DNA from: Natronorubrum halophilum
Lineage (GTDB): Archaea > Halobacteriota > Halobacteria > Halobacteriales > Natrialbaceae
DNA length: 64,000 nt
Direction of reading: 5' to 3'
NCBI RefSeq assembly: GCF_003670115.1
Contig: NZ_QQTY01000002.1
Span: forward strand, 310,001-374,000
Shown one piece after another: positions 49,752 to 62,974 of the stretch. Under the pieces are notes generated by a model that made no database searches, was not told the DNA's origin, and saw nothing but the letters and a program-made list of their open reading frames with translations. The position numbers were made by a program, and so were the translations under genes. Within the stretch, counting starts at the first letter, position 1, and every line of letters begins with the position of its first letter.

Positions 49752-51086
49752 ATGGCAAACGAGACACCCGACGACGACGGATCCGACCAGCGACGAATGA
49801 CCTCCGACCCGGAACGGATTCGAGAGTGGGCGGAAGCCCGCGACGCCGTTCCCGTCTCGATTCGCGGCGGCGAAGGGCACGGTCACTCCTTCGCCCGGCA
49901 GGACCAACTCGAGTCGGACCACGAGGAGTACACCTGGGACGAGTTCACGGAGACGTTCGAGAACGAGAATCTGGTTTTCATTTACCACGACGAGGAACCC
50001 ACCGGAGCGGGACTGGGTCACTTCGAGATCGTCGAACGGGAGGCGGCGTTCGATCGCGCGTCGCTCGGCCGCAATGAACTCGAAGACCAGCTCCGAGAGG
50101 GCGAGACGGTGACGACCGAGATCGTCGAGACGCAGGTCGTCCAGACCGAAGTCATCGAACGCGATACGATCGAAAGCGAGGTCGTCGACACCGAACTCGT
50201 CGAGCGACAGGTCGTCGATTCGGAACTGCTGAACCGGGAACTCATCGACACCGAGTTCGTCAGCGGCAACGTCATCGAAGTGATCACCGACGAAACGCGT
50301 CTCGACACGATCGACGAGGTCGAACGCTACACCGTCGAGAGCCGGGTGGTCGACGTCGACGTCGAACAACACGACGAGGTCGAACGCGACGAGGTGCAGA
50401 CGAACATCGAACTCGAGAGCGTCCAGCGCTCGATCCTCGAGAGCGACGTCGTAACCGCGGACGTCACGCCCGAGGAGGTCGTCGATCGGGAAGTCATTCA
50501 GAGCAAGCGCGGCGAGGGCGACACCGTCCGGAGCGAGCTTCTCGAGCGCCGCACCGTCGAGGAACAGATCGACGAACGAGCGCGGATGCGCTTTGCGCTC
50601 GAGGACACCGAACTGCTCGAGTCGGACGTCGTCGGGAGCGACGTCATCGAGGGCGAGATTATCGACGTCGAGGAGTACGACGCGATGGACGCGACGGCAG
50701 AGACCGGTACTACCGGCGCTGATACCGGTTCGGGTGCCGGAGTCGCGGCGACGGGTGAGGCCGAGACCGGCTCCGGCACCGAGGGCGAAGCCGGAACCGA
50801 GACGCCGGCCGTCGACACCGGTCCGGTCGAACTCTCGGACGACGATCAGGGAAAGCCGGTCGTCGACGAGACGGGCGAGCAGATCGGTATCGTCGCGGAA
50901 GTCGAGGGGCAGACCGCCTACATCGATCCCGAACCGGGGCTGACGGATCGGCTCAAAGCGCGACTGAACTGGGGCGGCCACGGCGACGACGACTATCCCG
51001 TCGAGGCCTCGGAGATCAACGAGATCACCGACGACGAACTGATCATCCAACACGGCGGCGACGAGAATACTCACACCGACGAGTAG
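49752..51086 (+). CDS. Pentapeptide-like repeat protein with C-terminal PRC-barrel-like domain
   Basis: A 444-residue acidic protein. Residues about 19-80 form a small alpha/beta N-domain (DPERIREWAEARD ... YTWDEFTETFENENLVFIYHD). From residue 122 come ten perfect-phase five-residue units of the form x-E-hydrophobic-hydrophobic-acidic (TEIVE, TQVVQ, TEVIE and so on to 171). Less regular units of the same type continue to about 300. This suggests a right-handed beta-solenoid. A Thr/Gly/Glu linker (about 312-355) leads to a PRC-barrel-like domain (GKPVVDETGEQIGIVAEVEGQTAYIDP). The solenoid faces would be very acidic. I do not recognise an assigned function; it is probably a cytoplasmic scaffold or ligand-binding protein. 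Confidence 0.75.
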   Translation: MANETPDDDGSDQRRMTSDPERIREWAEARDAVPVSIRGGEGHGHSFARQDQLESDHEEYTWDEFTETFENENLVFIYHDEEPTGAGLGHFEIVEREAAFDRASLGRNELEDQLREGETVTTEIVETQVVQTEVIERDTIESEVVDTELVERQVVDSELLNRELIDTEFVSGNVIEVITDETRLDTIDEVERYTVESRVVDVDVEQHDEVERDEVQTNIELESVQRSILESDVVTADVTPEEVVDREVIQSKRGEGDTVRSELLERRTVEEQIDERARMRFALEDTELLESDVVGSDVIEGEIIDVEEYDAMDATAETGTTGADTGSGAGVAATGEAETGSGTEGEAGTETPAVDTGPVELSDDDQGKPVVDETGEQIGIVAEVEGQTAYIDPEPGLTDRLKARLNWGGHGDDDYPVEASEINEITDDELIIQHGGDENTHTDE

Positions 51087-53951: not shown

Positions 53952-55295
53952 TTACTCTTCTTCTTCGGGCGTATCGCGGGCGTCCTGATCGGTTCGTCGA
54001 CCGACGTCGACGCGGTAGTTCTCGAGGATGTCCCGACCGAGCAAGACGGGGTAATCCATGTGGTTACGATCTTCGACGCTCGCGGTGACGGTGTGTTGAT
54101 TGCCGCCGACGCCGACGACGACGTCCACCACGGGGCGACTCTTTGCGGTCTTGCTGCTCCCGGACCTGATTCGCGTGATGGATTTGATCGGCCCGGCACC
54201 GATGTCGGCTGCGAGTCCGGTATCGATGCTCGTCCGCGTCGCACCGGTGTCGGACTTCGCGAGGACCGATTTCGACCCGCTGGTGCCGGAGAGGACGACC
54301 TCCTCGGTGTACCCGATCACGGCCGGTTCCGTCTCCGACTGGCCCGTCTGGACCGGCTGGGCTATCGGCTGTGAGTCGTCGAGTACTTTCGAAAGCTCCC
54401 GTACGCGGCCGTCGTCGACCTCGCCGCCGGCGCTCTCGATCGCGAGTTTGGCGATGTAGGGTGCCGGACTGATCTGGGTCGCCTCGTACAGCCCTTTGAA
54501 GCCTGCCGTCGGATTGACCTCGAGAACGAACCAGCCCTCGTCTCCCTCGACGAGGTCGACGCCGGCGTAGTCGAGCGTGGTGGCGTCGGCCGCCCGGCGA
54601 GCCATATCTCGAGCTTCCTCAGGGAGGTCGTCGGTCGCATCCTCCACGGAGCCGCCGAGGGCGACGTTGGTCCGCCAGTCGTTGTCGGGCGCGTAGCGAT
54701 ACATCGCGCTGATGATCTCGCCGTCGACGACGTAGACGCGGGCGTCGAAGTGACGGTCGTCGTCGCGGTCGATGAGTTCCTGCAGGAAGGCGTACCGGTT
54801 GCCGACCTTCGCGTTGATCGGGTCGTCGGCACCGACTTTCCACGTGCCGCCGCCGTGGGTACCGATCGCCGTCTTGTAGACGGCTTCCTCGCCGTACCGA
54901 CTGCGTGCGGCGTTGAGTTGATCGCTGCTGAGTGCGAGCGTGACGTCGGGGGTCCGAACGTCGTTCGTCGCGAGCGTCGCCGCCGTCGACAGCTTGTGGA
55001 TCGCCGTCAGCACCGCCGACGGTTCGTTGAGCATCGGCATCAGCTGTGCGAACGTGTTCGCGAGTCCGAGTTCCTCGGCCGGCTGTTCGGTGTTCGACAG
55101 CAGCATCCGATTCGCGATGATGTCAACTTCCGGCTCGAGGACGACGCTGCCGTCGGTGACGCTGATCGACGTGTTTTCGGACCGGAGCCACTCGGTGTCG
55201 TGACCGAGGGCTTCGACGGCATTTAAGATCGCCTTCGTTTCTTTGCTCGTGTGGAGGCTCAATACCCCGACGGTGACAGGATCGGCAACAGCCAT
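53952..55295 (-). CDS. RimK-type ATP-grasp ligase fused to a RimB-type (ATP-dependent zinc protease family) domain
   Basis: A 447-residue fusion. Residues about 1-95 are the RimK pre-ATP-grasp fold (VTVGVLSLHTSKETKAIL). Residues about 100-295 are the ATP-grasp, with AVYKTAIGTHGGGTWKVG (ATP loop), FDARVYVVDGEIISAMYR and VLEVNPTAGFKGL (metal-ligand Glu/Asn). The last ~130 residues match the small aspartic-protease-like family often called ATP-dependent zinc protease, with KSDTGATRTSID and DYPVLLGRDILENYRVDV. In bacteria these domains are often separate neighbours: RimK adds amino acids (Glu) to a carboxylate and RimB is thought to process or limit the product. An AstE-type deacylase, another frequent partner, is 4.7 kb away. 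The substrate here is unknown. Confidence 0.88.
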   Translation of the reverse strand: MAVADPVTVGVLSLHTSKETKAILNAVEALGHDTEWLRSENTSISVTDGSVVLEPEVDIIANRMLLSNTEQPAEELGLANTFAQLMPMLNEPSAVLTAIHKLSTAATLATNDVRTPDVTLALSSDQLNAARSRYGEEAVYKTAIGTHGGGTWKVGADDPINAKVGNRYAFLQELIDRDDDRHFDARVYVVDGEIISAMYRYAPDNDWRTNVALGGSVEDATDDLPEEARDMARRAADATTLDYAGVDLVEGDEGWFVLEVNPTAGFKGLYEATQISPAPYIAKLAIESAGGEVDDGRVRELSKVLDDSQPIAQPVQTGQSETEPAVIGYTEEVVLSGTSGSKSVLAKSDTGATRTSIDTGLAADIGAGPIKSITRIRSGSSKTAKSRPVVDVVVGVGGNQHTVTASVEDRNHMDYPVLLGRDILENYRVDVGRRTDQDARDTPEEEE

Positions 55296-55376
55296 ATCCG
55301 GATAGATGGCGACATGGGGGAAAAGTATGCTGTCATCGTATTCAATGGATTACTGACAGGATTCGGGATCGATGAG

Positions 55377-56846
55377 TTACGTGATCGCCGACCGAACCGC
55401 TCGCGGATCGACCAGCCCGCTCGCGACGGCGAGGACCGCCCAGGTGAGCGTCCCGAGCGCGATCGCCCCCAGAAGCATCGCCAGACTCGAGACCATCGGC
55501 GTCACGAGCAACACGGCGATCGCCATGATCCCGGTGATGCCACAGATCAGGCCGATCGTCCGGGCGAGCCGTCGAAGCCGAAGGGAGAGCTCCAGATGGA
55601 CGATGTAGAGGTTCACGGCGACGTACACCGAGTGCGTCGCGACCGTCGCGAGCGCCGCGCCGACGACGCCCATCGACGGGATCAGGAGGATGTTCAATCC
55701 GAAATTGGCCGCAGCGGTCCCGCCTTTCGCAACCGCGCGGTGGCGGGCGCGGCCGAGGTAGTCCAAACTGTCGCTGGTCAGATTCGTGATCGCCTGGAGG
55801 ACGATGAAGGCGGCGAGGACCTGAAGAACCGGAATCGCGCCCGCGTAGTCGGCGCCGAACACCATCCTGATAAACGGGTCCGCAACGATCGCGAGACCGA
55901 CGGCCGCCGGAATGTACAGCAACATCGTGTGCGTCAGCGACGTTTCGTAGATCCGGCGAGCCTGATCGAGCTGTCCCGAGGCCTTCTGTTCGCCGAAGTT
56001 CGGCGAGATGGTAAAGCCGAGCGATTCCGCGGGTGCGAGCACGAAGTCCGTGATCTGCTTTCCCAGCGTGTAGAACGCGACCGCGGTCGGGGTCAGGAAC
56101 ACGCCGACGAGAACGGTGTCGATCTGCTTGTCCACGACGTTCGCACTGCGCGTCGCCGTCAGCGGAACGCTGTACTCGAGGAGTCGACGCGAGAGGCCGT
56201 CCTCGTAGGTGTCGGCGGGGTCGTATCGTGCGTAGAACTTGTAGTACAGCAGCGTCAACCCGATCGCCGCCGACAGCGCGTAGCCGACGATGTAGCCGAA
56301 AAAGGCACCGAGTGCACCCAGCCCCAGAAGGATGAATCCGACGGCGAAGACGAGCCGACTGAATCCGCTTATCGCCTGCACCATCGCGCTGTAGCCCAAG
56401 CGATTGAACCCCTGAAACGTGATCTGTGCGAAGCCGCTGAACGAGAAGACGGTGATGTAGATCACGCCCGCCGCGAGAAACGGCGCGGCCGCCGGCTCCC
56501 CCAGCGCAACGGCGATCCGTTCGTGAAACAGGAGGAGGAGGTACACGACTAGCGTGATGATCACGATCTTGAACGTGACCGTCGACTTGATCAGGTGGGG
56601 GATCTGTCCGGGATCCTTCTCGTTGTACTCCGAAATATATCTGGCCGCGGACTTGCCGATCCCGAGATCGGCGACCAACTGGACCATCGCTAAAATCCCG
56701 ATCACCCAGTACAGCGTTCCGTAGCCGTCGGGATCGAGGAGATAGCGCGCCAGTAGGAACATTAACAGCGCGCTCGAGAGCATGTAGATTGCTCGAGCGA
56801 CGAGCGTTACTTTGAGTCCGCTGACGATGTGTTCCTGTCTGTTCAT
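55377..56846 (-). CDS. Oligosaccharide/polysaccharide flippase (MATE/MOP superfamily)
   Basis: A 489-residue membrane protein with about 12-14 helices of the Wzx/AglR-like flippase type. It opens with a charged VTLVARAIYMLSSALLMFLLARYLLDPDGYGTLYW-type segment (residues about 14-47). DLGIGKSAARYISEY is the typical first-loop motif. NFGEQKASGQ and LDYLGRARHRAVAKGG occur in later loops. It is expected to move lipid-linked glycans, but no glycosyltransferase is near. It lies 81 bp upstream of the RimK-RimB gene on the same strand, so the two could be co-transcribed. Confidence 0.88.
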   Translation of the reverse strand: MNRQEHIVSGLKVTLVARAIYMLSSALLMFLLARYLLDPDGYGTLYWVIGILAMVQLVADLGIGKSAARYISEYNEKDPGQIPHLIKSTVTFKIVIITLVVYLLLLFHERIAVALGEPAAAPFLAAGVIYITVFSFSGFAQITFQGFNRLGYSAMVQAISGFSRLVFAVGFILLGLGALGAFFGYIVGYALSAAIGLTLLYYKFYARYDPADTYEDGLSRRLLEYSVPLTATRSANVVDKQIDTVLVGVFLTPTAVAFYTLGKQITDFVLAPAESLGFTISPNFGEQKASGQLDQARRIYETSLTHTMLLYIPAAVGLAIVADPFIRMVFGADYAGAIPVLQVLAAFIVLQAITNLTSDSLDYLGRARHRAVAKGGTAAANFGLNILLIPSMGVVGAALATVATHSVYVAVNLYIVHLELSLRLRRLARTIGLICGITGIMAIAVLLVTPMVSSLAMLLGAIALGTLTWAVLAVASGLVDPRAVRSAIT

Positions 56847-57383
56847 TCGAATGTATCTGACACTACGTGGTGGCTTCGACCGCCCGATCGGAAGTTGAGG
56901 GACCGTCGCAGTCGTTCGGTGGAGGGATCTCCCAATTGTAATGCGGAGACAAACGCCGTTCGACTACCGGACCCGGCGTCGATAGTGGGTGACGGCCGAC
57001 AGGCTGGTCGAGTGGAACACGCCCGTCGCATTCGCGCTTCTGGGAGCGTAATGACCCGTATCCGTGTCGGTAAGGGCTACGTACTTCGGGTATCGTCGCG
57101 GGTAGTAGCGCGATCGCTCGCGGATACGGCGTCTCGACCGACGCCGAACTGACCGCTGTCACCGGAATCGTTCTCCGGGAAACGGATACCGAAGCGTCAA
57201 ACGAACGGTCGGTTCGATCGATACGGTGAACGAAGTGTTAGTTGATGATCCGTGTTACACTATTCGGAACGGGAGCTGAAATTGAACCGCTCGATTTCGG
57301 TAAGTGCGGGTACAACGTCTCAAAAGTTCCACACCTGGACGGACTGTTTGTGCAATCTACCGTGGACCGTTCCATTATCGGTT
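56847..57383. other. Intergenic region, 537 bp, no gene supported
   Basis: Lies between the flippase start and the trkA stop, both on the minus strand. Short open frames exist on both strands but are Arg/Ser-rich and unlike the haloarchaeal proteome. No clear TATA-like box for the flippase was found within 40 nt. GC content falls toward the trkA end. Confidence 0.5.
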
Positions 57384-58715
57384 TCAAATTAGTTCAGCGA
57401 TCTCAGAAGCGACGTCGGTGTCGACGAAGGCGATTACCCGATCGCCGGTTTGAATGATCTTATTTCCGCGTGGGAGTTGCAGTTGGCCGCCACGGATAAT
57501 AGCGCCGATTACGAAGCCCGCCGGCAACTGGTTGGCGGCATCCCTGAGGGAATTTCCGGTGAGAACGCTCTCTTTATCGACGACCACTTCAAGAACTTCC
57601 GCACTATCGTGCTCGAAAACGCTGACGTTCTCAGGGCCCGGCCCGTACACTGCCTGAAGAATTTTGCCGGCGATGATATCCTGCGGGTGAACGACCACGT
57701 CAATGCCGGTGCTTTCGAATATTTCGACGATTTCGGGGTCGTCAACGATGGCGGCGGTGCTAGTGACGTCACGTTCACGTGCCAACTGTGCGAGTAGGTA
57801 GTTCGTATCGTCGTCAACCGCGCCAACGACTAAATCAGCGTTTGTTAGCAAGTCGGGGTTGAAACCCTCGATATTCGCGATATCCGTTTCAGCGATTGAC
57901 GCACCTTGAAGTCGGGTTGAGAGGGCGTCCACCTGCTCGGGATCGCGTTCCGCGATTTGCGGTGCCCAGCCCCGGGCTTCAAATTGCTGGGCAATCTGAT
58001 ACCCCAACTCGTCCCCTCCGACGATTACGATGTCGTCGTCGGAATCCAGAGCTGGTTGTGGGGCAACAGCATCCGCGAACCGACTGATGTCAGATAAACC
58101 TCCGATAACGACTACACAGTCACCGGATTGAATGACTGTGTCGCCCTGGGGAATGAGTATGTCGTCATCCCGGAGGATGGCTGCGAACGTTGTTGATGCG
58201 TAGCGATCCGCCTCCGCGATGGTCTGACCGGCCACTGGTGCATTCTCCCTGATTTCGAACTCGGCGGCTTCCACCTGACCGCCGGCAAAGGTATCGACAG
58301 CTCGCGCTCCTGGGAGTACGATGGTCTGGGTGACGGCTTCGGCAGCGAGCACGTCAATGCACAGCATCGTATCGACGCCGAGACCACCATCAAGTGATTG
58401 CCAGGTCCGGCACAACCCAATATCCTTCACTCGAGCGATGGTGTGGGGATCACCGGACCGCTTGGCCGCATTGCAGGCCATGATATTGGCCGCGTCGCTA
58501 TCGGTGCTCGCAACAACGATGTCCGCGCGGTCGATGTCTGCTTCCCGAAGCACGGGTACTGAACGCCCATCACCAACGATCCCTGAGACATCGATCTCCG
58601 ACGTCAGAGCGTCGATTCGGCCCGAATCACGGTCGACGATAGTAACATCGTGAGTCTCCGTGAGGTCAGAGGCGATATTTGTACCGACGTCCCCGGCTCC
58701 GATGATGAGAATCAT
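57384..58715 (-). CDS. trkA: TrkA-type potassium-uptake regulator with two RCK modules
   Basis: A 443-residue cytosolic NAD(H)-binding regulator that gates TrkH/KtrB-type K+ channels, central to salt-in osmoadaptation. It has two RCK-N folds (ILIIGAGDVGTNIASDL at the start and DIVIVGGDELGYQIAQQF near residue 229). Each is followed by a TrkA-C domain (VEAAEFEIRENAPVAGQ; LEVVVDKESVLTGNSL). Length and order match bacterial/archaeal double TrkA. There is no TrkH gene on either side. Base composition is lower in GC than its neighbours (for example about 47% over 57841-57900 by hand count). Codon choice also differs, hinting at transfer. Confidence 0.93.
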   Translation of the reverse strand: MILIIGAGDVGTNIASDLTETHDVTIVDRDSGRIDALTSEIDVSGIVGDGRSVPVLREADIDRADIVVASTDSDAANIMACNAAKRSGDPHTIARVKDIGLCRTWQSLDGGLGVDTMLCIDVLAAEAVTQTIVLPGARAVDTFAGGQVEAAEFEIRENAPVAGQTIAEADRYASTTFAAILRDDDILIPQGDTVIQSGDCVVVIGGLSDISRFADAVAPQPALDSDDDIVIVGGDELGYQIAQQFEARGWAPQIAERDPEQVDALSTRLQGASIAETDIANIEGFNPDLLTNADLVVGAVDDDTNYLLAQLARERDVTSTAAIVDDPEIVEIFESTGIDVVVHPQDIIAGKILQAVYGPGPENVSVFEHDSAEVLEVVVDKESVLTGNSLRDAANQLPAGFVIGAIIRGGQLQLPRGNKIIQTGDRVIAFVDTDVASEIAELI

Positions 58716-58959
58716 TTGTTATTCTATAGAGACAGACACCGCGGCAAGTTGTAAATCTTGTACCGTCCTTTCTTCTTTCACTGATCAGACGCGATGATTA
58801 TTGCTGACGACGGCTGCGTGATGTTCTCCTGTGCATTCTGCGTGATCGCCTCTATACTCTCATTCAGATCGAAAAATTTCGGACGGCATATACGCAACCT
58901 GTACGTGCCAACCGCTTTACGAGTACCACTACGTAAGAGAGCCGTACCACTACCTCCTG
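58716..58959. other. AT-richer spacer with a possible short minus-strand frame
   Basis: A minus-strand frame at 58778-58897 (TTG start) would encode 39 residues including FFDLNESIEAITQNAQENI. It reads like true protein but lacks a good start or promoter. It could be a fragment of a gene lost next to trkA. A TATA-like CAAGATTTACAA on the minus strand near 58747-58758 may serve trkA. Confidence 0.35.
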
Positions 58960-59709
58960 CTAGAGATACGACGAGTCCCAACGCGTCGCCTTCCGACGAT
59001 TGCCACAGACGTTGCACTCGATGCGTCCCATGGTGTCCATGGTGTTGTCCAGCGAGTCGCAGTTGCCACAAAACCACGCGTACAGTTCCTCCCGGTCCTC
59101 GGTCTCGTAGGCGCCGTAGAACGGTGACTTCGCGCCACGGGCGGCCTCGCCGAAGCTCACGTAGACGGTCTGCCCGTCGACCTCGAGTTCGTCGACGGCT
59201 CCCCAGCCTTCGTCGCCGATCTCGCCTTCGACGTAGACGTTCTCCGTGAACGTCTCGTCGCCGATCTCGACCTCGCGCTGGCCGGCCCGTTCGAAGCCGT
59301 GGCCCCGATAGAACGCATTGCCGCCTTCGTTGTCCTCGAGGACCAGACACTGGATGTTGTCGGCACCTTCCTCGAGTAGCTTTTCGCGGGTTCGAACGAG
59401 CAGCCGGACGCCCGTTCCGCCGCCGCGGTGGTCGGGGTCGATGTGCAGCCACAGGATCCGACCGGTGTCGTACCGCTGGCCGATCAGATCGTTCTGGGAG
59501 AAGCCGACGACCTCGCCGTCCCGTTCGATGACGAGGACGAGCGAGTGGTCGGCCGCGAGTTCGTCGGTAAACGAGTCTCCGTACCACTGTTCGATCGCGT
59601 CGTCGATAGTTTCCGCCTCGAGAAAGTCCGTATACGTTGAGTTAAGGGACCGCTGGGCGATCGAACGGATCGCGTCGATATCGTCATCAGTCGCTTCACG
59701 AATCTCCAT
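58960..59709 (-). CDS. GNAT acetyltransferase fused to a C-terminal zinc ribbon
   Basis: A 249-residue protein. The N-terminal GNAT domain has the acetyl-CoA-binding motif DPDHRGGGTGVRLLVRTREKL near residue 92 and the C-terminal strand GNAFYRGHGFERAGQ. Residues about 150-195 form a linker with acidic beta segments (DETFTENVYVEGEIGDEGW). The last ~40 residues carry CGNCDSL and CNVCGNRRKATRW, a four-Cys zinc ribbon. The acceptor substrate is unknown; the ribbon could bind nucleic acid or a protein partner. Start ATG 59709. Convergent genes do not overlap. Confidence 0.85.
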   Translation of the reverse strand: MEIREATDDDIDAIRSIAQRSLNSTYTDFLEAETIDDAIEQWYGDSFTDELAADHSLVLVIERDGEVVGFSQNDLIGQRYDTGRILWLHIDPDHRGGGTGVRLLVRTREKLLEEGADNIQCLVLEDNEGGNAFYRGHGFERAGQREVEIGDETFTENVYVEGEIGDEGWGAVDELEVDGQTVYVSFGEAARGAKSPFYGAYETEDREELYAWFCGNCDSLDNTMDTMGRIECNVCGNRRKATRWDSSYL

Positions 59710-59954
59710 GGTTGCTAGTACTATGGCATCCTACAAAACGTATGCCCACGGGGAGAGTTTCTCCCCAACTCGATTCGATGAAACGAGCACTCGTTTCGCA
59801 AGATCAACACCCGCGGCCGTCCGTCGGTGACTGATACCGAAAACAGGCCGGCTGCGGTCGGTTCTTGTCATCACCGCGGGAGGGGATCGGCGCGAACGGA
59901 TCGCCGTCGCGTCGACAAGCGAAGATTCACATTGCTCCCGGCGGAGACACTGCT

Positions 59955-61055
59955 ATGAGCGACGATACGGATGAGCCACCGGACGGCGGTGCGTCCGAGC
60001 CTACGGCCGACACGTTCACGTACAACGGCGGCCGGGTTGATCCCGGCGAGTCGGCCAATATTCGGTACGGTATCAGCGAAACGTATCTCGGTGATCCCGT
60101 CAGAATCCCCGTTACGGTGATCAACGGCGAACATCCCGGGCCGACCGTCTTCCTCTCGGCTGCGGCTCACGGCGACGAACTCAACGGCATCGAGGTCGTC
60201 CGTGAGGTCGCCCACGACTGGGACCACTCGGGGCTCCACGGGACCCTGATCTGTCTCCCCGTGATGAACGTCCCCGGTTTTCTCGCACAGGAGCGGTATC
60301 TTCCGATCTACGACCGGGATCTGAACCGCTCGTTTCCCGGCCGCGAGGGCTCGACGAGCGCCCGGCGGATGGCACACCGCATCTTCACGAACTTCATCGA
60401 ACCCTGCGATCTCGGCGTGGACTTCCACACGTCCACGCGCGGCCGAACGAACATGATCCACGTTCGGGCCAACATGGAACACTCGAAGGTGTCACGGCTC
60501 TCGAAAGCGTTCAGCTCGAACGTCATCATCGCCGGTGAGGGCCCGTCGGGAACGCTTCGACGGGAGGCGACACAGGCCGGCGTTCCCACGATTACGGTCG
60601 AGATGGGCGAAGCCCACCGGTTCCAGCGTCGGCTGATCGATCGCGCCTTGACCGGCGTTGCGAGCGTGCTCGCCGAATTCGGCCTCCATCCGGAATCCTC
60701 CGTCCACTGGCCCGGCTGGCGGACCATTATCGACGACGACAACGAGAAGACGTGGATCCGCGCCGACGCGGGCGGTATCGTCGACATGAAACGCGGCCGA
60801 GGCGAACTCGTCAGGGAGGGCGAGGTGATCTGTACGATTACCAACCCGTTCAAGGAGGAAGACGACATCGTCACCGTCGAAGCGCCCTTCACCGGACTCA
60901 TCGTCGGCGTCCTCGAGAATCCGGTCGTCTACCCGGGGAACCCGCTGTGTCATCTCGTCGGGCTCTCGCCGGATACTCGAACGGCATTAGAGCGTGAACG
61001 GACGACCGAGAACTCCCGGTCGGAACTCCGGGCTGCCGGTTCGGAGATGGAATAA
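59955..61055 (+). CDS. Succinylglutamate desuccinylase/aspartoacylase-family (AstE-type) zinc deacylase
   Basis: A 366-residue zinc carboxypeptidase-fold enzyme. The metal site is HGDELNG (His72, Glu75) plus the later His in VDFHTSTRGR (His158). The family motif is RDLNRSFPGR (about residues 121-130), with VEMGEAHRFQ carrying a likely catalytic Glu. The C-terminal ~90 residues are a beta-sandwich (GGIVDMKRGRGELVREGEVICTI). Members remove N-acyl groups or split amides of amino acids. ATG 59955 is chosen over the upstream open frame, which is basic. RimK and RimB homologues often neighbour this family; the RimK-RimB fusion is 4.7 kb away on the other strand. Confidence 0.9.
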   Translation: MSDDTDEPPDGGASEPTADTFTYNGGRVDPGESANIRYGISETYLGDPVRIPVTVINGEHPGPTVFLSAAAHGDELNGIEVVREVAHDWDHSGLHGTLICLPVMNVPGFLAQERYLPIYDRDLNRSFPGREGSTSARRMAHRIFTNFIEPCDLGVDFHTSTRGRTNMIHVRANMEHSKVSRLSKAFSSNVIIAGEGPSGTLRREATQAGVPTITVEMGEAHRFQRRLIDRALTGVASVLAEFGLHPESSVHWPGWRTIIDDDNEKTWIRADAGGIVDMKRGRGELVREGEVICTITNPFKEEDDIVTVEAPFTGLIVGVLENPVVYPGNPLCHLVGLSPDTRTALERERTTENSRSELRAAGSEME

Positions 61056-61270
61056 CGCAACGCGTCGTGCCTGCCCACCGCTGCCGGTCGTGGGGACCGT
61101 CGGTCCGGATCGCTCCCCGTCGGTCGGCCGTCTCCCCTCGATCGTCTCGAGCGATAGTCTGACATGTTGGCGCTCGAGTTCGGACCCGTTCGGAGTTTGT
61201 CGACGAATCCATTTCGTTTCCGACTGAACGTGATCGGCAGAAACTGCCAGCAGGAGCGATAAAGTAACTT

Positions 61271-61278
61271 CTATACCC
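61271..61278 (+). promoter_or_regulatory. TATA-like box of the sdh operon
   Basis: CTATACCC is centred about 31 nt before ATG 61306. A three-codon frame (ATG AGC GCA TGA at 61298-61309) overlaps the sdhC start and may lie at the extreme 5' end of the mRNA. Confidence 0.45.
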
Positions 61279-61305
61279 CCACGGTCTAACCGTCCACATG
61301 AGCGC

Positions 61306-61734
61306 ATGAGTCAGTCTTACAATCGCGGTCTCATCGAGGACTTCGGTCGCTGGAAGGAGTTCTCGGCCGGCATGTGGGCGTGGATCTTCCACAAGTTCAC
61401 CGGGTGGATGCTAATCGGCTATCTGTTCACTCACATCGCCGTGCTGAGTACAGCCGTCGGCGCAGCGAGCGGCGACGCAACACTCATCCAGCAGGAAACG
61501 GACATCTATACGACGACGATTCAGGGGCTCGAGGGCCTCTTTATTGTACGGATACTCGAGGTCGGACTGCTCGCAGTGGCAGTGTTCCACATCCTGAACG
61601 GGCTTCGATTACTGATGGTCGATCTCGGCGTCGGATTGGATGCACAGGACAAGAGTTTCTACGCTTCGCTGGTGTTGACGGCGATCATCACCGTCGCGAG
61701 CGTCCCAACCTTCCTCGACGGGGTGACCCTCTGA
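61306..61734 (+). CDS. sdhC: Succinate dehydrogenase cytochrome b subunit
   Basis: A 142-residue membrane anchor of complex II with three helices. Haem/quinone-related His residues appear in [21 protein letters not shown] and [17 protein letters not shown]. It starts with a short charged helix. Its stop overlaps the sdhD start (TGATG), the first of several tight couplings in the operon. The order C-D-B-A matches haloarchaeal sdh operons. Confidence 0.93.
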
Positions 61735-62105
61735 TGGCGGAGCGATACTCCTCGTTCGCGCCCGGCGGGACCGCGTGGTTGCTCCAGCGGATCACGGCGG
61801 CGTTTCTGGTCGTCGTTCTGGCCTTTCATTTCTTCCAACTACACTTCGTCAACCACGCCGCGGACGTCACCTTCCTGGGTACGGAGGCTCGGATGGAGAA
61901 CGTCGGCTACTTCCTGACGATGGTCCTGTTCCTGATCACCGCGGCGTTCCACGGCGTCAACGGCGTCTACAACGCGCTCGTTAACCAGGGGCTGAAAGGA
62001 ACGCAGAAGAAGGTCGTACTCGCAGTGCTTGTTCTCGCGGGCACGGCACTCATCGTGCAGGGAATCTACGTTGCAATGGCGATGGCCGGGGTGGAGATCG
62101 TATGA
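61734..62105 (+). CDS. sdhD: Succinate dehydrogenase membrane anchor subunit
   Basis: A 123-residue protein with three membrane helices. His residues occur in VLAFHFFQLHFVNH and TAAFHGVNGVYNALV, where haem or quinone ligands are expected. ATG 61734 shares its A with the sdhC stop codon, and its own stop overlaps sdhB by 4 bases. With SdhC it holds the catalytic subunits on the membrane and passes electrons to menaquinone. Confidence 0.92.
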   Translation: MAERYSSFAPGGTAWLLQRITAAFLVVVLAFHFFQLHFVNHAADVTFLGTEARMENVGYFLTMVLFLITAAFHGVNGVYNALVNQGLKGTQKKVVLAVLVLAGTALIVQGIYVAMAMAGVEIV

Positions 62106-62974
62106 GCACTCAACAACCCGAACAACCCGAGAGTCAGGAGGCACCGAAAGACCCCGAAATGCGGGGGGCCGAGTCGCCGGTCGACGAGAAAGAGAAAGAA
62201 GGCGGCGATATCGATCAGACGACGGCCGACAAGTCCGAACTCGAGGGCGAGTCGGTCCTCATCAAGGTGTTTCGCTACGATCCCGAGGTCGCGGACAAAC
62301 AGGAGCCGCGCTTCGACGACTTCCACGTGCCCTTCGAGCGGGGGATGACCGTCCTCGATGCGGTCATGTACGCCCGGGATACGTATGACTCCTCGCTGAC
62401 CTTCCGACACTCCTGTCGGCAGGCCGTCTGTGGCTCCGACGCATTCTTCGTCAACGGCAAACAGCGACTGGGGTGTAAGACCCAGCTCGCGGATTTGGAG
62501 CACCCGGTTCGGATCGAACCGCTGCCCCACCAGGAGGTCGTCAAGGACCTGGTCGTCGACATGGACCACTTCTACGACCAGATGCACACCGTCGAACCGT
62601 ACCTCCAGCAGGACGACCTGCCGGAGGGCGAACTCGAGGAACAGCGCCAGTCCCGGGAGAACCGCGAGAAGGTCAAGATGTCCACGCGCTGTATCTGGTG
62701 TGGCGCGTGCATGTCCTCGTGTAACATCGCGGCCGGCGACAACGAGTACCTCGGTCCGGCGGCGATCAACAAGGCCTACCGGTTCGCGATGGACGACCGC
62801 GAGGACGAGGACGTCAAAGAGCACCGACTCCGCATTCTCGAGCAGGAACACGGTGTCTGGCGGTGTCAGACCCAGTTCTCCTGTACCGAGGTGTGTCCGA
62901 AGGACATTCCGCTCACCGAGCACATTCAGGAGCTCAAGCGGGAAGCGGTGAAGAAAAACCTGAAGTTCTGGTAA
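62102..62974 (+). CDS. sdhB: Succinate dehydrogenase iron-sulphur subunit
   Basis: A 290-residue electron-transfer subunit. The 2Fe-2S site is Cys105, Cys110, Asp113 and Cys125 in CRQAVCGSDAFFVNG plus GC; the Asp in place of the third Cys is also found in E. coli SdhB. The 4Fe-4S and 3Fe-4S ligands are in CIWCGACMSSCN and CQTQFSCTEVCPKDI. The first ~50 residues are an acidic, probably disordered extension common in haloarchaea. The start overlaps sdhD by 4 bases. Confidence 0.95.
   Translation: MSTQQPEQPESQEAPKDPEMRGAESPVDEKEKEGGDIDQTTADKSELEGESVLIKVFRYDPEVADKQEPRFDDFHVPFERGMTVLDAVMYARDTYDSSLTFRHSCRQAVCGSDAFFVNGKQRLGCKTQLADLEHPVRIEPLPHQEVVKDLVVDMDHFYDQMHTVEPYLQQDDLPEGELEEQRQSRENREKVKMSTRCIWCGACMSSCNIAAGDNEYLGPAAINKAYRFAMDDREDEDVKEHRLRILEQEHGVWRCQTQFSCTEVCPKDIPLTEHIQELKREAVKKNLKFW

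Follow-up and report, generated by a model that had tools for sequence, protein, structure and literature searches.

The RimK-RimB type fusion protein and the AstE/AspA-type metallo-deacylase of Natronorubrum halophilum form a genuine module in the Halobacteria, where the pairing of the two is far from chance. About nine in ten haloarchaeal genomes carry this module, which is lost as a unit. The fusion ends in a conserved glutamate tail, a feature absent from an earlier interpretation of this DNA made from its letters alone (here the sequence-only reading), and this tail suggests that the ligase domain may use the fusion itself as its acceptor. All coordinates given below refer to the window, i.e., the whole stretch of 64,000 nucleotides that was analysed.

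The fusion (53952-55295, minus strand) is encoded by a single open frame of 447 codons (447 amino acids) and, according to Pfam and NCBIfam matches, consists of an N-terminal RimK-like ATP-grasp ligase and a C-terminal retropepsin-like domain. The RimK ATP-grasp core (PF08443, E 1.6e-21) covers residues 100-276 (54468-54998, minus strand), the retropepsin catalytic motif DTGA, located by alignment with RimB-like proteins and other fusions, occupies residues 349-352 (54240-54251, minus strand), and the match to the RimB-type retropepsin-like family PF05618 (E 1.2e-10) extends over residues 369-435 (53991-54191, minus strand). The protein ends in EEEE (53955-53966, minus strand), the proposed acceptor site, of which the terminal Glu is near-invariant among orthologues. 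A gene for a MOP/Wzx-type polysaccharide flippase (55377-56846, minus strand; PF01943, E 9.7e-28) lies 81 bp upstream of the fusion gene, and genes for a TrkA potassium-uptake regulator (57384-58715, minus strand; Pfam and NCBIfam matches) and for a GNAT acetyltransferase with a DUF5816 zinc ribbon (58960-59709, minus strand; PF00583; CxxC...CxxC) follow on the way to AstE. The AstE/AspA-type deacylase, the partner of the fusion (59955-61055, plus strand; PF24827, E 1.8e-47), is encoded about 4.7 kb away from it, as the first gene before sdhCDBA. Profile matches place every gene of the sequence-only reading where it had been located and agree with its description of RimK- and RimB-type parts in one polypeptide with AstE 4.7 kb off; trkA was missing from its gene list. 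Elsewhere, the protein encoded at 49752-51086 contains short V/E-rich repeats in a long series (...VVETQVVQTEVIERDTIESEVVD...) and, after them, an apparently PRC-barrel-like end.

Fusion and AstE proteins were each searched against the same 194 Halobacteria genomes, an orthologue being defined by E < 1e-100. Orthologues of the fusion, mostly matching over the full length, are encoded in 176 genomes, all of which possess AstE as well, while 15 genomes have neither gene, three have AstE only and none has the fusion only (Fisher p 9e-20, uncorrected for phylogeny). Joint losses are spread across about ten genera, and in five of these genera sister species have kept both genes. Remnants of the pair can be recognised: in one of the AstE-only genomes (G110) a shortened fusion gene adjoins AstE, and in a genome without AstE (G114) a fragment of the fusion with a stop is still present. 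Both genes could be placed in 126 genomes. Outside the window's own family (f1), 73 of 78 genomes have the two genes side by side and divergently oriented, separated by a median of 155 bp, and within f1 they are divergent and less than 8 kb apart in 44 of 48. The region between fusion and AstE genes contains ordinary-looking A/T-rich promoter-like elements and no striking common motif. Second copies of the fusion on plasmids may be paired with AstE too (Halorarius, Halolamina), and so is a chromosomal fusion paralogue in genome G063. Some haloarchaea carry several copies of the fusion, a few of them with stop codons, frameshifts or truncations (L321, L336 in G174, and L335 in G063). Plasmid paralogues L229, L230, L302, and L305 sit among genes for universal stress proteins, and the L229 locus also encodes a cyclic 2,3-diphosphoglycerate synthase.

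The genes for flippase, TrkA, and GNAT separate the fusion from AstE in family f1 only. In most f1 genomes the flippase gene immediately precedes the fusion, and its close orthologues (59-84% identity) are confined to this family, matches elsewhere reaching at most about 53%; in genome G052, fusion and AstE are lost and the flippase orthologue is retained. The GNAT-DUF5816 cluster stands beside the pair in few loci. As parts of the module we rejected the flippase, given its restriction to f1 and its persistence in G052, the GNAT-DUF5816 protein, given its presence in few loci, and TrkA, which intervenes in f1 only. Directly behind AstE and on the same strand, sdhCDBA is a steady neighbour across haloarchaea (59955-62974 in the window, AstE included), and this adjacency persists in several genomes in which AstE no longer lies near the fusion. 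AstE and sdhCDBA are the only widely conserved neighbours at the fusion locus. The co-occurrence and co-location that the sequence-only reading had asked to be checked are thus found, and its grouping holds for fusion and AstE and fails for flippase and GNAT-DUF5816, which lie outside the core.

The ligase domain belongs to the RimK superfamily (PF08443, 77.2 bits, gathering cut-off 21) and scores just under the curated cut-off of the NCBIfam RimK family TIGR00768 (141.0 versus 143.4 bits). The ATP/Mg residues K101, K141, D184, R200, D247, E259, and N261 are conserved and correspond to K100, K141, D187, R203, D248, E260, and N262 of E. coli RimK. Four more specific identities were considered and rejected: bS6-modifying RimK (PRK10446 equivalog, 60.2 versus 331 bits; separate clade, PF01250 absent), LysX (100.7 versus 275.6 bits; separate clade), MptN (117.8 versus 350 bits; separate in the tree), and CofF, which was not in the tree (47.1 versus 300 bits). 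Phylogenetic analysis places the RimK domains of haloarchaeal fusions in a clade of their own (100/99) on a long branch outside the bS6-RimK group, LysX, and MptN. They are joined weakly to LysX (91/79, long branches), which may be a long-branch effect. A tight grouping with CofF, LysX, or MptN, which had been named beforehand as an outcome that would speak against a distinct system, is not found, LysX and MptN being excluded by the tree and the scores lying far below the cut-offs for all three. In the AF2 model the RimK part is good, and the best Foldseek matches of this domain are LysX/ArgX and RimK, the closest solved fold being LysX/ArgX with LysW-gamma-AAA (E 2e-19). H215/R216 near the RimK active-site loop are replaced by A/L in the fusion, and the R8 contact of P. 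aeruginosa RimK is also altered; the poly-Glu contacts that are retained are mostly shared with LysX and are therefore uninformative on specificity. A third haloarchaeal RimK-family ligase (L003, at G000:C4:171481-172038, beside the gene for uL16 (L10e); also L131, L138, and L146) fits none of the NCBIfam equivalogs and branches as a deep clade by itself.

The retropepsin domain is of the RimB type (PF05618, 41.9 bits, cut-off 27), and its DTG and DRxxMxxxxLLGR motifs align with those of RimB-like proteins. About 21 residues of the RimB-like relatives are missing from it in the alignment, most of the domain is modelled with pLDDT <60 in both AF2 models, and the RimB equivalog NF052261 does not appear among the NCBIfam hits of the fusion. 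In the fusion paralogues L230, L231, L331, and L332 the DTG motif is lost; the ligase residues of L230 and L231 are intact despite this loss. The deacylase is a member of the AstE/AspA catalytic family (PF24827, 161.8 bits, cut-off 25), with intact metal and substrate motifs (HGDE, DLNR, DxHT, and E) that are invariant in the alignment. It was not assigned to the AstE equivalog (24.0 versus 305.7 bits) or to the DoeB equivalog (94.9 versus 402.7 bits).

The 13-34 residues that follow the LLGRDIL core of the fusion form an acidic stretch with little conservation, in which Asp occurs freely. Nevertheless, of 113 distinct tails 110 have Glu at the very end, none has Asp there, and 93 end in EE; the first set of tails had given terminal Glu in 53 of 55, and 60 further genomes brought the count to 110 of 113. 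In the three non-Glu tails a Glu run precedes a short extension, an arrangement that repeat slippage could produce. For control families of the same loci the fraction ending in E is 0.21 (AstE), 0.14 (HhH), 0.04 (flippase), and 0 (SdhC, SdhB, and GNAT), and 34 of 211 neighbouring ORFs end in E; these background tails stem from mechanically called ORFs, related genomes are not independent, and neither are all of the lines of evidence on the tail. The terminal EE is kept in the DTG-less paralogues L230, L231, L331, and L332, so that the constraint on the terminal Glu is better matched to the ligase than to the protease. The Glu end is absent from paralogues L328, L329, L330, L333, and L334 and thus is not required by every copy. 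Among the unfused RLAP, RimK, and AstE proteins of bacteria and methanogens no Glu ending was found, and self-modification would therefore be specific to haloarchaea. LysW is the acceptor of the RimK-family ligase LysX, and in N. halophilum, where its gene lies beside lysX, it ends in ...LEEDWGE; bS6 of E. coli ends in ...EAGDSEE. The acceptors of two RimK-family ligases thus end in Glu, as the fusion does.

Within the phylum Halobacteriota, PF05618 occurs in the fusion in Halobacteria and as an unfused protein mainly in a family that we take to be the Methanosarcinaceae, one named locus being from Methanolobus. Haloferax volcanii was among the genomes with matches to both PF05618 and PF24827. 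In three methanogen genera the unfused PF05618 gene is the first of a tight RLAP-RimK-AstE operon. When GTDB genomes were scanned with an AstE alignment, the best 80 loci came mostly from gammaproteobacteria, many of them marine or halophilic; in 50 of these 80, both RimK and RLAP are encoded near AstE, in agreement with the earlier claim that RimK, RimB-type proteins, and AstE are recurrent neighbours in bacteria, and in 36 the order is RLAP-RimK-AstE. RimKs of the methanogen operons nest among those of the bacterial operons in the tree, and E. coli RimK falls into the same group. Haloarchaeal fusion and AstE bring together the same three linked components that occur unfused elsewhere, and the pair is thus a fused, deeply diverged variant of a recurrent module. 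A second methanogen family of about 178 amino acids (L109-L120) matches PF05618 weakly and was set aside as a relative of the module, with neither RimK nor AstE adjoining. To our knowledge, archaea do not possess bS6, and the documented target of RimK-type glutamylation is bS6. PF01250 was absent from the genome of N. halophilum, one other haloarchaeal genome, and the four methanogen genomes examined, as expected from the earlier remark that a bacterial-type S6 target is lacking; fused and unfused archaeal versions therefore both need another acceptor.

It is plausible, if still short of probable, that the pair constitutes a module for amino-acid ligation and removal in which the ligase extends its own C-terminal tail with Glu, trimming falls to the retropepsin, and the removal of residues to AstE. 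The writer, a RimK-type ligase, and the trimmer, a RimB-type retropepsin, would reside in one polypeptide, and the divergently transcribed AstE/AspA-type metallo-deacylase would be the eraser. By analogy with bacterial RimK and the acidic ...EE tail that it extends on bS6, the ligase would add L-glutamate to the Glu-ending, acidic, and variable tail of the fusion, in cis or within an oligomer. Once long enough, the tail would be cut by the retropepsin, so that the cycle would limit itself and the enzyme be reset; cutting may release oligo-alpha-glutamate, and AstE would hydrolyse acyl-Glu bonds to yield free Glu. The output may be a modified state of the enzyme, free oligo-Glu, or both. Genes and domains, catalytic residues and their conservation, co-occurrence and co-location, the conserved terminal Glu, and the lack of bS6 are observed, and from there we infer Glu as substrate, the own tail as acceptor, and the action of AstE on the product; the tail could instead serve regulation or product binding. 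More tentatively still, we propose that the fusion is a self-modifying enzyme, being its own acceptor and having a built-in reset, with AstE clearing the product, and that the two make up a near-universal writer/eraser cycle of haloarchaea. The conserved tail reduces the acceptor question to one direct test, the search for extra glutamates on the C-terminus of the fusion itself. If they are present, the fusion would be an unusual enzyme serving as its own substrate, prompting a hunt for targets other than bS6 of the bacterial and methanogen operons.

The main rival to self-tailing is the same module with a ligase acting in trans on another protein or a small molecule, the Glu tail being a pseudosubstrate or regulator that binds to the ligase or retropepsin site. 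This is possible, if on the doubtful side: bacterial RimK modifies bS6 in trans (PMC10092738), the tail is missing from some fusion paralogues, and the methanogen operon proteins, having no Glu tail in genomes without bS6, require another acceptor; however, no candidate is linked to the locus, the tails of SdhB and SdhC not ending in Glu. Alternatively, the tail might be a LysW-like carrier in cis, receiving one amino acid on the gamma- or alpha-carboxyl of its terminal Glu. As in the lysine and arginine synthesis mediated by LysW, this amino acid would be processed in the bound state and then set free, here by AstE. The closest solved fold, the weak junction with LysX on long branches, and the Glu end of LysW would suit such a carrier, which we nevertheless consider unlikely, given that a poly-Glu-cutting retropepsin family has no role there, that the pair is not accompanied by biosynthetic enzymes, and that, in contrast to the EDWGE end of LysW, the tail is variable in both length and sequence.

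A soluble poly-alpha-glutamate, made and turned over as a glutamate store or K+ counter-ion with the tail being irrelevant, seems comparably improbable. RimB does stimulate the synthesis of poly-alpha-Glu by bacterial RimK (PMC11957791), and, among the best 80 loci, halophiles and marine bacteria often have the module, but the link to salinity that rests on these loci is anecdotal, and the conservation of the terminal Glu would be left unexplained. That the flippase handles an exported or lipid-linked product, as the sequence-only reading had hinted, is very improbable. The position of the flippase gene upstream of the fusion in most f1 genomes is in favour of this idea, whereas the lack of close orthologues outside f1 and the retention of the flippase in G052, without fusion and AstE, argue against it.

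Among known systems, LysX and LysW resemble the self-tailing fusion in that a RimK-family ligase acts on a protein whose C-terminal Glu is the acceptor, but they involve a separate carrier protein and a biosynthetic pathway and no retropepsin. RimK-RLAP-AstE three-gene neighbourhoods were reportedly covered, and probably first described, by Iyer and colleagues in 2009. The RLAP-RimK-AstE operon of Methanosarcinaceae and gammaproteobacteria contains the same three components in tight linkage; it differs in having three mostly co-directional genes, a RimK of the bS6-RimK clade, and no Glu tail. In the open-access papers we found nothing on the fusion of haloarchaea, on its association with AstE, or on the Glu tail. 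The Rlo system of P. aeruginosa also combines a retropepsin and an ATP-grasp protein at one locus, but its retropepsin is secreted and accompanied by a membrane transglutaminase-like protein, neither of which is encoded at the haloarchaeal locus (PMC12239564). RimK-RimB hybrids are known in bacteria as RimBK, and that of Desulfotalea psychrophila, for which glutamylation of bS6 was not seen, is likewise a single chain that combines a ligase with a retropepsin (Little et al. 2025, PMC11957791). In RimBK, however, RimB is N-terminal, whereas the haloarchaeal order is RimK followed by the RimB type, so that the fusion is not a RimBK; RimBK is reported to be largely confined to two bacterial orders, AstE and archaea being unmentioned (PMC11957791). 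In bacteria, RimK adds Glu at the C-terminus of bS6 and RimB removes it (PMC11957791, PMC10092738), and RimB cuts poly-Glu, not poly-Asp, about 5-6 Glu being needed (PMC11957791). Like RimK of E. coli, whose acceptor, the bS6 tail ...DSEE, ends in Glu, and like the Pseudomonas RimABK system, in which it is paired with a RimB-type DTG retropepsin, the haloarchaeal module employs a RimK-family ATP-grasp ligase. In contrast to the two bacterial proteins acting on bS6, it consists of one protein with an AstE partner in organisms without bS6, and in the fusion the RimK domain falls into a deep clade apart and the retropepsin is shorter by about 21 residues.
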